DNA of 33,800 nt from Candidatus Kaiserbacteria bacterium. Its GTDB lineage: Bacteria; Patescibacteriota; Minisyncoccia; Phycocordibacterales; UBA2100. The stretch is taken from NCBI GenBank assembly GCA_016204805.1, contig JACQKA010000051.1, forward strand, positions 1 to 33,800, read 5' to 3'. Below are positions 4,986-10,305 of the stretch, one piece after another. The notes under the pieces are model-generated. The model saw only the letters and a list, made by a program, of their open reading frames with translations, did not search any database and had not been told where the DNA came from. The position numbers and the translations under genes were made by a program. Numbering within the stretch: position 1 is the stretch's first letter; each line of letters opens with the position of its first letter.

Positions 4986-6995
4986 TTAAAACTCCTTGAA
5001 CCTCGGCGTTGTCCTCACCTGCGCTGATTGGTGGAGACTGGTACCGCCACCCCCCGTACAGTCGAGCGTGAAGGTGGTAGCGGTGGTGATGACTCTGCTC
5101 GTTCGAGTGCCTGAGGTACCGGTCCAACTGTCGCCGTTGGTACCCGTTACGGTGCAGGCAGTGGTGTCTTGGGTTCCCCACTGTACAGAGACAGTGGAGC
5201 CGGGGCGAACGAGGGTCGGTGTCACTTTAATGGCGAGACCGTTACCGAGTGTGCCGATTGGATTCGGTGGTGGTACACAGGCACCGGATGAGCAGAGGTA
5301 GGAGCAGGTTTCCGGTACGCCGGATATAGTATCTACGCCGCATGACACATCGCGATAGTGTTTGACATTCGCAGAACAGTAGTAGCCGTAGGTTCCTGAG
5401 CATGCGTAGTTTGCAGAGAAACTGATCCATCCGAGGTTGGTATCTCCCCAGGCATAACCGATGATCTGGGTGTTATTGACGAGCGTGAGCCCATAGCCAG
5501 TGCCGGAAAGCGATATCCATCCATCCCATCCGCCTGCTTGTGAGTCGCTGTATGAAAGTGCCCGTGCCCAGCCGACGATGTTTGAGCCTGATACCGTGGC
5601 GTTCGATGCTGTCGTGCCGCTACCTGCGGGGAATCCAGAGAGACCGCCGAATTGTATCCATCCGACGTTTTCACTCCATGCATAGCCAGTGATGGAGCTA
5701 CCCGCGAGAGTAAGGCCATAGACAGAAGATGCACAAGTGCCACTGTCACCGCTATTCAGCGATATCCATCCGATAGTGTCGGACCATGCCCAGCCGGTGA
5801 TGTTGCCGCCGTTTGGACCGGTGGGACACGATGCGGTTGCGACGGTGCTGTCTTCATTCGAGTATGCGCTATCACCTACGGCGTTGGTGGCTTTCACGCG
5901 GTAGTAGTAGGTGGTGCCGGTAACTACTGCACTATCGGTGTAGTTCAAGACGTTGCCGACGGTTTGGTAGAGCGTGATTGGTGTGGGAGATGTGCCTCGG
6001 TATATTTTGTAGTTGGTGATGGCGGAGCCGCCGTCGCTACTCGATGCAGTCCAGGTGAGAGAGATCTGTTCGATGCCGCCGGAGGCATCGAGATTTTGTG
6101 GGGCAGTGGGAACCGTAGTGGGTGGGATGGGAGTGTAGGTGATGACAATGATGCCGGGGCGACCGGCACCACCGGTTCCCAACGAGGCTCCACCGCCTCC
6201 GGCGCCATAGAGTCCCCCAGTAGCACCCGCACCGGCGCATCCGGTATTCCCGCCACCGCCACCACCTGAACCATGCGAGGCATCCCATTCGGTGCCAGGG
6301 CTTCCTGCCGTTGCAGTGCCTCCACCGGCACCTCCTGCACCAGCATCACCGGAGCCGCCGGTTGATGAAGAGCCGTTGTTCCCATTGCCCGTAGAACCTC
6401 CAGCCCCGCCACCGCCACCACCTTTATTGCACAAGCCGGCTCCGTTCGCGCTTGTGCCACCACTATTTTTGATTGAGCCAATACCGCTCGCGACGCCGCT
6501 CGCCGCAGCGCCGCCTGAGCCACCAGTTCCGTTTTGGGGTGCCGTAGTTCCCCCCTTGGCTCCCGCCACCACCGCCGTATCCATGGTGCTCGCACAATTA
6601 GAAGTCGAATTGCAGAAATATGTATCGCCCGCGATGTCACCGACCGCGTATGTGATGCTTGCGCCAGCGGTCAGGGATACATTGACCGATTTCGAGTATG
6701 CACCGCCTCCGCCTCCGCCTAAGCCGTTACCAGCGGTATCAGTGGCTCCCGAGCCTCCACCACCAATGACTTCAATAGTATTGTTTGCTGAATTCCAATC
6801 AACGGGCACCGTCCATGTTGTGCCGGAAGTGAGAAAGATGACCGTTGGACCGACGGCTTCCGCTTTTTGTGGAATAAGTGACACTACACTCCACGGAGAG
6901 AGTGCCGCGAACCCGAACACACCCAACACGAGCGCGATAAAAGCCACAGCCTCTACTGCAGTTGTGCTGATTTTTTTTATCATGTTATTGTGCAT
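4986..6995 (-). CDS. Secreted surface protein: glycine-rich domain, fibronectin type III, GWAWS...GWIS repeats, C-terminal Ig-like domain
   Basis: WTVPVDWNSANNTIEVIGGGGSG; PTAPQNLDASGGIEQISLTWTASSSDGGSAITNYKIYRG (FN3); four GWAW/GYAW...GWI repeats. Confidence 0.8.
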   Translation of the reverse strand: MHNNMIKKISTTAVEAVAFIALVLGVFGFAALSPWSVVSLIPQKAEAVGPTVIFLTSGTTWTVPVDWNSANNTIEVIGGGGSGATDTAGNGLGGGGGGAYSKSVNVSLTAGASITYAVGDIAGDTYFCNSTSNCASTMDTAVVAGAKGGTTAPQNGTGGSGGAAASGVASGIGSIKNSGGTSANGAGLCNKGGGGGGAGGSTGNGNNGSSSTGGSGDAGAGGAGGGTATAGSPGTEWDASHGSGGGGGGNTGCAGAGATGGLYGAGGGGASLGTGGAGRPGIIVITYTPIPPTTVPTAPQNLDASGGIEQISLTWTASSSDGGSAITNYKIYRGTSPTPITLYQTVGNVLNYTDSAVVTGTTYYYRVKATNAVGDSAYSNEDSTVATASCPTGPNGGNITGWAWSDTIGWISLNSGDSGTCASSVYGLTLAGSSITGYAWSENVGWIQFGGLSGFPAGSGTTASNATVSGSNIVGWARALSYSDSQAGGWDGWISLSGTGYGLTLVNNTQIIGYAWGDTNLGWISFSANYACSGTYGYYCSANVKHYRDVSCGVDTISGVPETCSYLCSSGACVPPPNPIGTLGNGLAIKVTPTLVRPGSTVSVQWGTQDTTACTVTGTNGDSWTGTSGTRTSRVITTATTFTLDCTGGGGTSLHQSAQVRTTPRFKEF

Positions 6996-7359
6996 GTTGC
7001 AGGGACGCCAACACCTTGAGTTTGTCAGCTTCGGAAAGCACAATGCGCTCTTCTCCATTATCAATACGCTCGGCGAGCGACTTGAGCACTTTGAGTTTGT
7101 CCTCTTCTTTTATACTCGCGCCATTCGATTGGGCGGACAGGCTGGCAAGTATCTCTTCTTTTGTCTTCATGGTCTGTTCAGCGGAACGTGTGGGGATGAA
7201 GCGTGCGAGAAGCGCACGGCCTTGTGTCGCATTCAAAAGCCATAGTACGAAAATAAATCCAAGCACGCCCGCGATCACGACACCGGATATCGGCGTGATG
7301 TTCGCATTCTCATCGAGCATGCGCTCGATCCACGATTTAACTGGCACATTAGGATCCAC
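6985..7359 (-). CDS. Single-TM hypothetical protein, 3' end overlapping the start of the next gene
   Basis: TPISGVVIAGVLGFIFVLWLLNA TM segment; overlaps the 6995 start. Confidence 0.65.
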   Translation of the reverse strand: MDPNVPVKSWIERMLDENANITPISGVVIAGVLGFIFVLWLLNATQGRALLARFIPTRSAEQTMKTKEEILASLSAQSNGASIKEEDKLKVLKSLAERIDNGEERIVLSEADKLKVLASLQHAQ

Positions 7360-7421
7360 GTAATTAAGTATAGCCCCCCATTCCAGGGACTACTGTTTAT
7401 CGTGTGGAAAACAAATGTATT

Positions 7422-7558
7422 TCCTCGACGCAACCACTTCGTCAGCGACATTTCTAGGGACAACGGCATAGTGATCGAACTCCATCGTCGAATTGGCGCG
7501 GCCTTCGGTCATGGAACGGAGGGTTGTCGTGTAGCCGAACATTTCGGAGAGCGGTGAT
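7422..7558 (-). pseudogene. Duplicated fusA 3'-end fragment (about 44 codons)
   Basis: Minus strand encodes [45 protein letters not shown], identical to the C-terminus of the complete EF-G at 8155-10305. Confidence 0.93.
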
Positions 7559-7579
7559 GCCTTTCCGTGCAAAACCAAT

Positions 7580-7608
7580 TTGACAAGTGGTATCCGTACG
7601 TATAGAAT
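7580..7608 (+). promoter_or_regulatory. Sigma70-type promoter for the toxin-antitoxin operon
   Basis: TTGACA (7580-7585), 17-bp spacer, TAGAAT (7603-7608); 10-bp palindrome ATATTAATAT at 7614-7623 is a possible operator. Confidence 0.65.
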
Positions 7609-7637
7609 GTTTTATATTAATATTAGATTGTAACATC

Positions 7638-7868
7638 ATGGCTAATCTTTCGGTGTCAATTGACGGAGAAACTGCGCAACGACTTGAAGCTGAAATCGCA
7701 CAGGGTGATTTCCAGAGCAAATCCGAGCTCGTTAAACGTGCAATTACGGAGTACATGCGTGAGCTCGCCTATCAGCGTATCCTTCAGAGTCGGCGTGAAT
7801 ACATGGAGGGTAAGTACTTTCTGATTAAGGGCCCTGCGAAGGATCATTTTCGCAAGATGCGCATATGA
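7638..7868 (+). CDS. Ribbon-helix-helix (CopG/ParD-like) antitoxin
   Basis: MANLSVSIDGETAQRLEAEIAQGDFQSKSELVKRAITEYMREL; stop overlaps downstream ATG (ATGA). Confidence 0.85.
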   Translation: MANLSVSIDGETAQRLEAEIAQGDFQSKSELVKRAITEYMRELAYQRILQSRREYMEGKYFLIKGPAKDHFRKMRI

Positions 7869-8209
7869 TTCAGATTGCAATCACTCCTTCCCTTGACCAC
7901 AAAGTGAGAAAAATTGACCCACTGCTCCGCGAGGAAGTATTTGATGTGATCGATAAACTTAAAGATCAGAAAAACCACAAGTCTCTCAAGGTTCATAAAC
8001 TGCACGGAAAAGCGAAGGGCTTGTATGCTGCTTCAGTCGATTACCAACATCGACTTATTTTCCAGTGGGTACAGCAAAACCGAATCCTGCTCTTGGATTT
8101 TGGGAATCATTCTGTGTACGAGTGGGGCTTATTCTCTGTCCGCATCAGTGTGCTCTACTTCCTACTCGCCACTACTTCATCCGCGACATTTCTGGGCACA
8201 ACAGCGTAG
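7865..8209 (+). CDS. RelE/ParE-superfamily toxin
   Basis: Position after RHH antitoxin; LREEVFDVIDKLKDQKNHKSLKVHKLHGKAKGLYAASVDYQHRLIFQWVQQNRILLLDFGNHSVYE is a RelE-like core; C-terminus overlaps fusA antisense. Confidence 0.8.
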   Translation: MIQIAITPSLDHKVRKIDPLLREEVFDVIDKLKDQKNHKSLKVHKLHGKAKGLYAASVDYQHRLIFQWVQQNRILLLDFGNHSVYEWGLFSVRISVLYFLLATTSSATFLGTTA

Positions 8210-10305
8210 TGGTCGAATTCCATCGTAGAATTGGCGCGACCTTCGGTCATGGAACGGAGGGTTGTGGTGTATCCGAACATTTCAGAGAGCGGCACGTGCG
8301 CGGTAATGACCTTGAGCCCGCCGGTGCGATCGTCTATGGATTGCACCTGTCCGCGCTTGCCGTTCAGATTGCCCGTAACATCTCCCATGAATTTGTCCGG
8401 TGTAACAACTTCTATCTTCATGATAGGCTCGAGCAGTGCGAGTTTTGCCTGACGAGTTGCCTCCTGGAGTGCCTGTGATGCGCAAATCTTGAAAGCGATT
8501 TCTGACGAATCCACATCGTGATACGAACCGTCGTATAGCTCCACCGAAATGTCGACGAGTGGGTACCCGGCCAAGACGCCGCGGTCCATCGCTTCACGAA
8601 TGCCTTTCTCAACTGCCGGAATGAATTCGTTCGGGATGACGCCTCCTTTGATGTTGTTGATGAATTCGAAGTGATCTTCACGCTTTATGTTCGCCGGCTT
8701 TTTCTTTTTTCCGTCTTCAACGACCGGTTCGAGCGGCTTTACTCGTATTTTTACATGTCCATACTGACCGCGACCTCCTGTCTGTTTTATGTATTTGTTT
8801 TCTACGTCAGCAGTGCCGGTGATCGTTTCGCGATATGCCACCTGCGGCTTGCCGAGCGTCGCTTCCACATTGAATTCTCGCCGCATGCGATCAGTGATGA
8901 TATCGAGGTGGAGTTCTCCCATGCCGGATACAATGGTGTCGCCGGTCTCTTCATCGGTTGAAACACGGAATGTCGGGTCTTCGTCTCCCAATTTCGCAAG
9001 CGCCATGCCCATTCGCTCCTGATCGCCCTTCGTCTTGGGCTCGATGCGTGCGGAGAGGACCGGTAAGCGGAATTTGATCTCTTCAAGAATGATGGGGCTC
9101 TTTTCGTCGCAAATCGTGTGCCCGATCTTTGCGTTTTTCGCGCCGACCAAGGCCGCGATCTCTCCGGTAAATACTTTTTTTATCTCTTCCCGCTTATCCG
9201 CCTGCAAGCGCACCATGCGGCCGACGCGTTCTTTCGTGCCATTCGATGCGTTGTATACATAACTGCCCGCCTCGAGCGTGCCGGAATAGACACGGAAGAA
9301 CGAAAGCTGGCCGACGAACGGGTCGGTCTGTAACTTGAAGATGAGCGCTGAAAACGGCTCTGCATCATCCGGCTTGCGCACTAATCCCTCTCCGGTGTCG
9401 GGGTGTTTGCCTTTCGCCGGCGGCAGATCGAGCGGATTCGGCAGATAATCGACAACGCCATCTAATACCAGCTGGACGCCTTTGTTCTTGAGCGCGGAGC
9501 CGCAGAATGTCGGGAAAATTTTATTTTCGATGACCGCCTTGCGCAGGGTCTTTTTGAGCTGATCCATCGGAGGTTCTTTGCCTTCGAGATACGCGGTCAT
9601 CATCGCTTCATCGTGCTCGACGATGGCTTCAATGAGCTCGGCACGGTATTTTTCTGCATCCGTCTTCAAGTTTGCTGGGACTTCGCCCATAATGATGTCA
9701 CGCCCCATCTCGCCTTCGAAACGAACCGCCTTCATAGTGAGCAAATCGACAACGCCTTCCATCGCGTCTTCTTCGCCAAGCGGTATCTGCATACGCACGG
9801 CGTTTTTCGAAAGCCGATCGCGGATCATCGCGAAACAGCGTTCGAACGATGCGCCGGTGCGGTCGAGTTTGTTCACGAAACAGAGGCGCGGCACTTGTGC
9901 GTCTTCGGCATAGCGCCAGTTCGTTTCCGTCTGCGGCTCGACGCCCGCAACGCCATCAAACACGACGATCGAGCCGTCCAAGACACGCATGGAACGCTGG
10001 ACTTCAGATGTAAAATCGATGTGTCCGGGCGTATCGATAATATTGAAACGGTGTTTGAATGCAGTGTCCGCGCCCATGTATGAGGGGTTCCAGAAACACG
10101 TGATGGCGGCGGCGGTGATGGTGATACCGCGCTCGCGTTCCTGTTCCATCCAGTCGGTAACGGTGTTCCCCTCGTGGACTTCGCCGATCTTGTGGCTCTC
10201 ACCAGTGTAATACAAAATACGCTCCGATGTGGTCGTCTTTCCCGCATCAATGTGGGCGATAATCCCAAAATTTCTTACTTTCTCCAGAGGGTAATCGCGA
10301 TTCAT
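8155..10305 (-). CDS. fusA: Elongation factor G
   Basis: VRNFGIIAHIDAGKTTTSERILYYTG, IIDTPGHIDFTSEVQRSMRVLDG, NKLDRTGA; complete. Confidence 0.98.
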   Translation of the reverse strand: MNRDYPLEKVRNFGIIAHIDAGKTTTSERILYYTGESHKIGEVHEGNTVTDWMEQERERGITITAAAITCFWNPSYMGADTAFKHRFNIIDTPGHIDFTSEVQRSMRVLDGSIVVFDGVAGVEPQTETNWRYAEDAQVPRLCFVNKLDRTGASFERCFAMIRDRLSKNAVRMQIPLGEEDAMEGVVDLLTMKAVRFEGEMGRDIIMGEVPANLKTDAEKYRAELIEAIVEHDEAMMTAYLEGKEPPMDQLKKTLRKAVIENKIFPTFCGSALKNKGVQLVLDGVVDYLPNPLDLPPAKGKHPDTGEGLVRKPDDAEPFSALIFKLQTDPFVGQLSFFRVYSGTLEAGSYVYNASNGTKERVGRMVRLQADKREEIKKVFTGEIAALVGAKNAKIGHTICDEKSPIILEEIKFRLPVLSARIEPKTKGDQERMGMALAKLGDEDPTFRVSTDEETGDTIVSGMGELHLDIITDRMRREFNVEATLGKPQVAYRETITGTADVENKYIKQTGGRGQYGHVKIRVKPLEPVVEDGKKKKPANIKREDHFEFINNIKGGVIPNEFIPAVEKGIREAMDRGVLAGYPLVDISVELYDGSYHDVDSSEIAFKICASQALQEATRQAKLALLEPIMKIEVVTPDKFMGDVTGNLNGKRGQVQSIDDRTGGLKVITAHVPLSEMFGYTTTLRSMTEGRANSTMEFDHYAVVPRNVADEVVASRK

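Follow-up and report, generated by a model that had tools for sequence, protein, structure and literature searches.

Integrative elements that target tRNA genes, guaA or prfC restore the 3′ end of their target by a carried copy, and the displaced copy is left at the far end of the element. Integrons form arrays of small cassettes, often toxin-antitoxin (TA) modules, with recurrent sequences between them. Here we describe a related arrangement at fusA, the gene for elongation factor G (EF-G), in a 33,800-nt contig of a Candidatus Kaiserbacteria bacterium (assembly GCA_016204805.1, contig JACQKA010000051.1, positions 1 to 33,800; the whole stretch is referred to as the window). In the window a TA pair lies between the complete fusA gene and a second, displaced copy of the fusA terminus. 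This is a case of gene-end displacement as known elsewhere, found here at housekeeping genes. The closest likeness is to the type VI secretion system (T6SS) effector-immunity arrays of Vibrio cholerae and to Rhs orphan 3′ ends, where a homology-anchored module replaces a gene end, the old 3′ end is pushed downstream together with its partner, and serial arrays are formed (PMC5361080); a comparison with integrons was drawn for the T6SS arrays as well (PMC5361080). In those arrays, however, the displaced gene encodes a toxin and the cargo is an immunity gene, whereas here an essential translation gene and unrelated TA families are involved. Unlike the integrative elements, the present loci show no visible integrase and no fixed core, and they carry cargo of about 600 bp from several families. 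The recurrent border, in contrast to that of integrons, is the fusA end, and no attC or IntI was seen, although no search with dedicated models was made. Thaumarchaeal casposons have the gene for EF-2, the archaeal homologue of EF-G, as their commonest target and form tandem insertions there (PMC6563490), but casposons belong to the self-synthesising transposons and encode a Cas1 integrase, and no such integrase was seen at our loci. A literature search on TA modules or islands at fusA gave nothing relevant among the papers listed.

The complete fusA gene of the window (8155–10305, minus strand, 716 aa) contains the Pfam EF-G domains and has its nearest relative in genome G008 (82% aa identity). 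Its end is one arm of a 137-nt direct repeat with 86% identity. The first copy (8156–8292, minus strand) covers the last 45 codons and the first two stop-codon bases of the functional gene. The second copy (7418–7554) has kept the fusA strand (minus), and its 45 codons specify the identical C-terminal residues (PLSEMFG...VVASRK, 45/45); the inserted interval (7555–8154) extends from this displaced terminus to the fusA stop codon. The window therefore shows a complete gene with a restored reading frame, foreign cargo, and a displaced 3′ end on the same strand. A chance origin of the copy is excluded (E about 1e-26; the reversed sequence yields no fragments). These data confirm the initial annotation, which had placed a TA pair and a second fusA terminus at the fusA 3′ end, and refine the copy to 7418–7554 and 45 codons. 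At the stop position the displaced copy reads TAC (7418–7420), and the frame continues past the end. The displaced ends of the window and of G032 (fragment L158) are alike in this respect: in both, the stop reads tyrosine and the remainder is well kept. No second copy of the repeat, of the TA unit or of the inserted DNA was found in the window's genome.

Comparison of the two fusA ends revealed 19 nucleotide differences in 17 of the 45 codons, all of them synonymous, including serine encoded as TCG vs. AGT. If 25–35% of random changes are taken to be synonymous, the odds of such a pattern by random change are about 2e-8 to 6e-11, which indicates that both copies evolved as working ends of two fusA genes. 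We thus concluded that the ends derive from two fusA lineages, and a local duplication followed by decay was rejected. The two ends are also mutual closest relatives (86% identity vs. at most 77% to other genomes, with G008 next best), so that both come from close relatives. A local tandem duplication of the fusA end with later insertion of the TA pair would offer a simple topology. Nevertheless, it is contradicted by the 19 synonymous-only differences and by a related locus in G082 (described below), where the displaced and the current ends belong to different lineages, and its probability is practically negligible.

Between the repeats only a TA pair was seen; it is encoded on the plus strand, convergent with fusA, and consists of an antitoxin and a toxin of known families in overlapping order, as in type II TA modules. 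The ribbon-helix-helix (RHH) antitoxin (7638–7868, plus strand, 76 aa) overlaps the toxin start by 4 nt and was recognized by a Pfam RHH_1 match (1.9e-6) on the 93-aa open reading frame (ORF) at 7587–7868. The toxin ORF (7865–8209) matched the HigB-like family at 8.4e-6 with 26.6 bits, just under the family cut-off of 27. Homologues of the toxin are present in 54 of 195 related genomes, its own genome counted, and the antitoxin has few relatives. All 19 toxin homologues that were aligned terminate with ..H-x-x-Y or one or two residues beyond it (approximately 86 aa), and by this alignment the canonical part of the HigB/RelE-like toxin spans 86 codons (7865–8122, plus strand). In the window TGG (8123–8125) replaces the natural stop, and the C-terminus is extended by 28 residues (8123–8209, plus strand), running antisense to the fusA end from 8155 to 8209; the toxin C-terminus is thus not intact. 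A promoter-like sequence upstream of the antitoxin, TTGACA-17-TAGAAT (7580–7608, plus strand), matches 11 of 12 consensus positions, yet it is a weak candidate, as one such site was found vs. 1.5 expected in shuffles of the region.

To follow the arrangement in relatives, as the initial annotation had suggested, we scanned the family of the window with the 45-residue fusA end, and then used fetched fusA loci, a scan of the order and a general test of ORF ends. Among 116 loci, seven had fusA-end fragments downstream; every fragment lay on the fusA strand, and reversed sequence gave none. The seven genomes (G000, which is that of the window, and G061, G084, G032, G082, G072 and G034) all belong to the family of the window. 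A shorter regular expression for fusA ends gave 17 matches on the fusA strand and none either on the opposite strand or in reversed sequence. The order scan revealed fusA-end fragments also in G275 and G246, which belong to other families, and the general ORF-end test added one more outside the family (L119). The window represents a single unit, while serial insertion arrays are found in G072, G082 and G061. Hence, the window is one instance of a recurrent process. Two contigs, G063:C30 at its end and G275:C4 at its start, break within fusA-end sequence and may hide further copies.

The recurrence bears on two other explanations. An assembly artefact joining the fusA ends of two strains would fit a metagenome-assembled genome (MAG) with 4.67% contamination and no reads. 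Recurrence in independent assemblies argues against misassembly, all the more as the same structure appears with different cargo and older copies are decayed; in addition, a chimera at conserved sequence should collapse the end rather than duplicate it. We consider such an artefact highly unlikely. Slightly less credible still is that the fragment is what remains of a second complete fusA, brought with the TA pair and deleted except for its end. Two fusA matches do occur in G184, G281 and G023, but in G023, the most contaminated of the three, the copies are near-identical, and all fragments are short C-terminal pieces with no intermediate lengths found.

The cargo at the fragment loci differs from genome to genome. 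In G072 we found Phd/ParE, then RHH/MazF and then MazE; in G034 a RelB-like ORF with YafQ/ParE; in G082 a ParE-like toxin followed by a RelB/YafQ-like pair; and in G061 an HTH-Fic protein with Phd/ParE. G084 carries Phd and a RelE-like protein (assigned by similarity, without a Pfam run), G246 a HepT/MntA fusion, and G275 a gene pair of unknown kind. TA modules within 2.5 kb were present at 5 of 7 fragment loci vs. 3 of 45 others (Fisher p = 4e-4), and with short remnants of a hairpin type (see below) counted, at 6 of 12 vs. 2 of 40 (p = 0.001). These one-sided tests are indicative, as the TA queries came partly from the fragment loci and were chosen afterwards, and related genomes were treated as independent. 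No integrase or recombinase gene was seen in the fragment-bearing intervals examined, in line with the initial annotation. TA modules or single TA genes with no gene-end fragment detected beside them were observed between rpsG and fusA or directly behind fusA at L206 (G134), L207 (G052), L199 (G072, 5178–5698) and L208 (G176, 8861–9350). At L140 (G084:C30) two ORFs lie beside fusA-end fragments; by appearance only, one is a possible reverse transcriptase, and the other, rich in repeats, is reminiscent of a diversity-generating target.

Duplicated ends are not confined to fusA. The general test covered 1542 ORF ends, and since the loci were centred on fusA, translation genes are over-represented in it. 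In G087 rpsJ is duplicated around a MazE/Doc pair, the rpsG end is duplicated in two genomes (L122 and L073), one of them with a PaaX-like gene, and the rplC end in one (L121). The idea that rpsG is an equally frequent site was discarded, since a second match occurred in just 1 of 197 genomes of the order. The earlier view of a TA cassette at fusA needs correction in two respects: the TA pair is convergent with fusA, and the process is tied neither to one TA family, nor to TA cargo, nor to fusA. No recognizable TA genes were found beside the fragments in G032, at rplC (L121) or at rpsG (L122 and L073), so that the association of fragments with TA cassettes, which the initial annotation had treated as decisive, holds only in part.

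The most direct evidence comes from G082. The body of its fusA is closest to G085, G087 and G069, to which its identity reaches 0.92 as far as approximately 40 codons before the end; over the last 30 codons the identity falls to approximately 0.7 and G076 becomes the closest. Informative sites supported the clade-mates vs. G076 at a ratio of 59:10 upstream, which changed to 4:8 over the final 30 codons (p = 4e-4); across the several end lengths that we tried, p ranged from 0.0004 to 0.0012. The displaced ends in G082 (VADEMVASRK and VADEIVASRK) are of the clade-mates' type, and in the sister genome G085 fusA runs straight into tuf. The affinities of body and end, together with the type of the displaced ends, indicate that the current end of G082 fusA is foreign and the displaced one native. 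G082 thus provides direct evidence of fusA end replacement. For G061 a sliding identity comparison suggests a foreign end as well, but the informative-site test was not significant. Taken with the recurrence and the TA enrichment, the G082 locus supports the earlier proposal of an insertion at the fusA 3′ end that leaves fusA intact and the displaced end behind it.

In the light of these data, a TA cassette probably inserted by homology at the fusA 3′ end, bringing with it a short fusA terminus of foreign origin, and displaced the old end. The cassette would arrive with this terminus attached, and the conserved last 30–180 bp (approximately) of fusA would serve as homology for recombination, either through a single crossover of a small circle or through homology-facilitated illegitimate recombination (HFIR) of a linear fragment. 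The reading frame would be restored by the donor or a hybrid end, while the recipient's own terminus would end up beyond the cassette as a fossil that no longer codes; repeated rounds could build arrays of the type fusA / TA / old end / TA / older end. A short carried terminus that recombines at a conserved end would explain why the fragments are short and their boundaries vary, and would also account for the foreign ends, the arrays and the diversity of cargo. The displaced copy of the window would then be the native one, though we dropped an assignment of native and foreign for these two ends, as no relative is close enough to decide polarity. Homology of the RecA type would be at work rather than a dedicated recombinase, with natural transformation as the presumed route; Patescibacteria were reported to have retained natural competence as well as the genes for homologous recombination (PMC12455944). 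Although plausible, the mechanism is unproven, and the agent could be RecA alone or a recombinase acting in trans.

HFIR is known in several transformable species and in E. coli (PMC3240628). In its classical form, with long donor DNA, a crossover anywhere in fusA and a non-homologous joint near the end, it would produce the same topology, and it was proposed for the Vibrio T6SS arrays (PMC5361080). It also predicts long remnants and long conversion tracts, yet all remnants are of at most 60 of 716 codons, and the foreign tract in G082 is limited to the last 30–45 codons or so. We regard this form as improbable, and the shortness of the fragments makes a short carried terminus preferable.

Several points weigh against the entry of a cassette with a carried terminus. 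Besides this departure from classical HFIR, a free cassette with such a terminus was not seen. The contigs are MAG assemblies without read support. The compared genomes include none of the window's genus, hence neither a donor nor an empty site is available for the window. The stop codon of the displaced copy has become TAC, yet the rest of the copy is undecayed. Finally, fragment starts range from 10 to approximately 59 codons before the stop, as expected if no fixed crossover site exists, but they are loosely concentrated around codons −10 and −45, possibly owing to a preferred site.

This last point leads to a second type of junction. In several genomes, ten-codon fusA remnants are preceded by a hairpin of the form GCCTGCCCCGTAG...CTACYGGGG, which resembles GTAG-tagged repetitive extragenic palindromes (REPs; PMC3733652). 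The pattern occurs in 12 of 68 family genomes and, in a slightly looser form, in 41 of 397 genomes of the order, while the reversed pattern gave no match. The loci comprise L214 (G000:C27:20926–20959, at tsaD) and L215–L253. Following GGGG|T, where the T had been included in the search pattern, 21 of 40 copies carry a repeat of the terminus of the gene that lies across the element (5% under the null; p about 2e-17, independence assumed). The repeated termini are the starts of fusA, tsaD, dnaE and dnaG, the end of infB, and the 3′ halves of tRNA-Asn and tRNA-Thr; tuf ends take the same form. When nucleotides are compared, this signal weakens (8 of 40 copies exceed the 99% null), as would be expected if the copies have diverged at synonymous sites. 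The stem covaries at six pairs, and Rfam searches of the hairpin loci returned only tRNAs and one chance-level match. At L236 the hairpin is bordered by a direct repeat of 37 nt without a mismatch, in contrast to the diverged repeats of the other loci, and may represent a recent insertion that truly duplicated its target. At L183 (G026:C22) fusA is followed by an ORF for an MntA-like nucleotidyltransferase and by a small ORF that appears HepT-like by eye; beyond these ORFs, two pieces of a fusA end are flanked by two hairpins.

These elements raise the question of a dedicated site-specific system, in which a tyrosine recombinase or a Y1/REP transposase would place cassettes with a compensating terminus in trans, as integrases do at tRNA genes. 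Hairpin elements in the same genomes precede, at GGGG|T, another terminus of the gene or tRNA next to them in the 21 of 40 copies above the 95% null, their stem covaries, and Y1 transposase genes are present in 51 of 68 family genomes, with five in G000. In addition, hairpin-type fusA junctions reuse codon −10 in several genomes, although no fixed crossover core was found at the fusA end as a whole, where starts vary. On the other side, the fragment-bearing intervals examined contain no recombinase gene, and no hairpin occurs at the 5′ boundary of the fragment in the window or of the TA-type fragments. The TA-type boundaries also vary in position. We therefore consider a site-specific system unlikely. 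The hairpin was present at other junctions in relatives but absent from the window and from TA-type junctions, and so was rejected as the agent of the window insertion. The hairpin elements are a related but separate observation from the TA insertions. Only speculatively, and with considerable doubt, can both be united in a previously undescribed gene-terminus insertion system of Patescibacteria, with TA cassettes and covarying GTAG-hairpin elements at the starts or ends of essential genes (fusA, tuf, rpsJ, infB, dnaG, dnaE, tsaD and tRNAs), each with a compensating foreign terminus, in integron-like arrays anchored in housekeeping genes.

The window, a single contig, belongs to a genome of 748 kb that has its named relatives among the Patescibacteria, mostly Kaiserbacteria, with G008 as the closest compared genome. 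On the minus strand the gene order is rpsL, rpsG, fusA, the TA pair with the old end, a small ORF, secreted-looking proteins, tuf and rpsJ. The small ORF (6985–7359, minus strand; no Pfam hit) was taken as native flank from a comparison by eye: in G011 and G027 similar small ORFs occur downstream of fusA and precede WSDTIGW proteins. By gene order, rpsJ (938–1282) and tuf (1342–2541), both on the minus strand (together 938–2541), mark the far side of a variable fusA-tuf accessory region, which ranges across the family from near contact to many kilobases.

The arrangement described here would give small cargo without mobility genes a repeatable route into the most conserved operons of streamlined genomes. 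TA modules would thereby be tied to a landing site that is common to every relative and cannot be lost, and addiction or selfishness may be the reason for their retention. The gene-end fossils form a record of past transfer, from which the donor, order and age of insertions may be read by sequence in uncultured bacteria. They also caution that a universal marker gene, that of EF-G for example, can have a foreign end.
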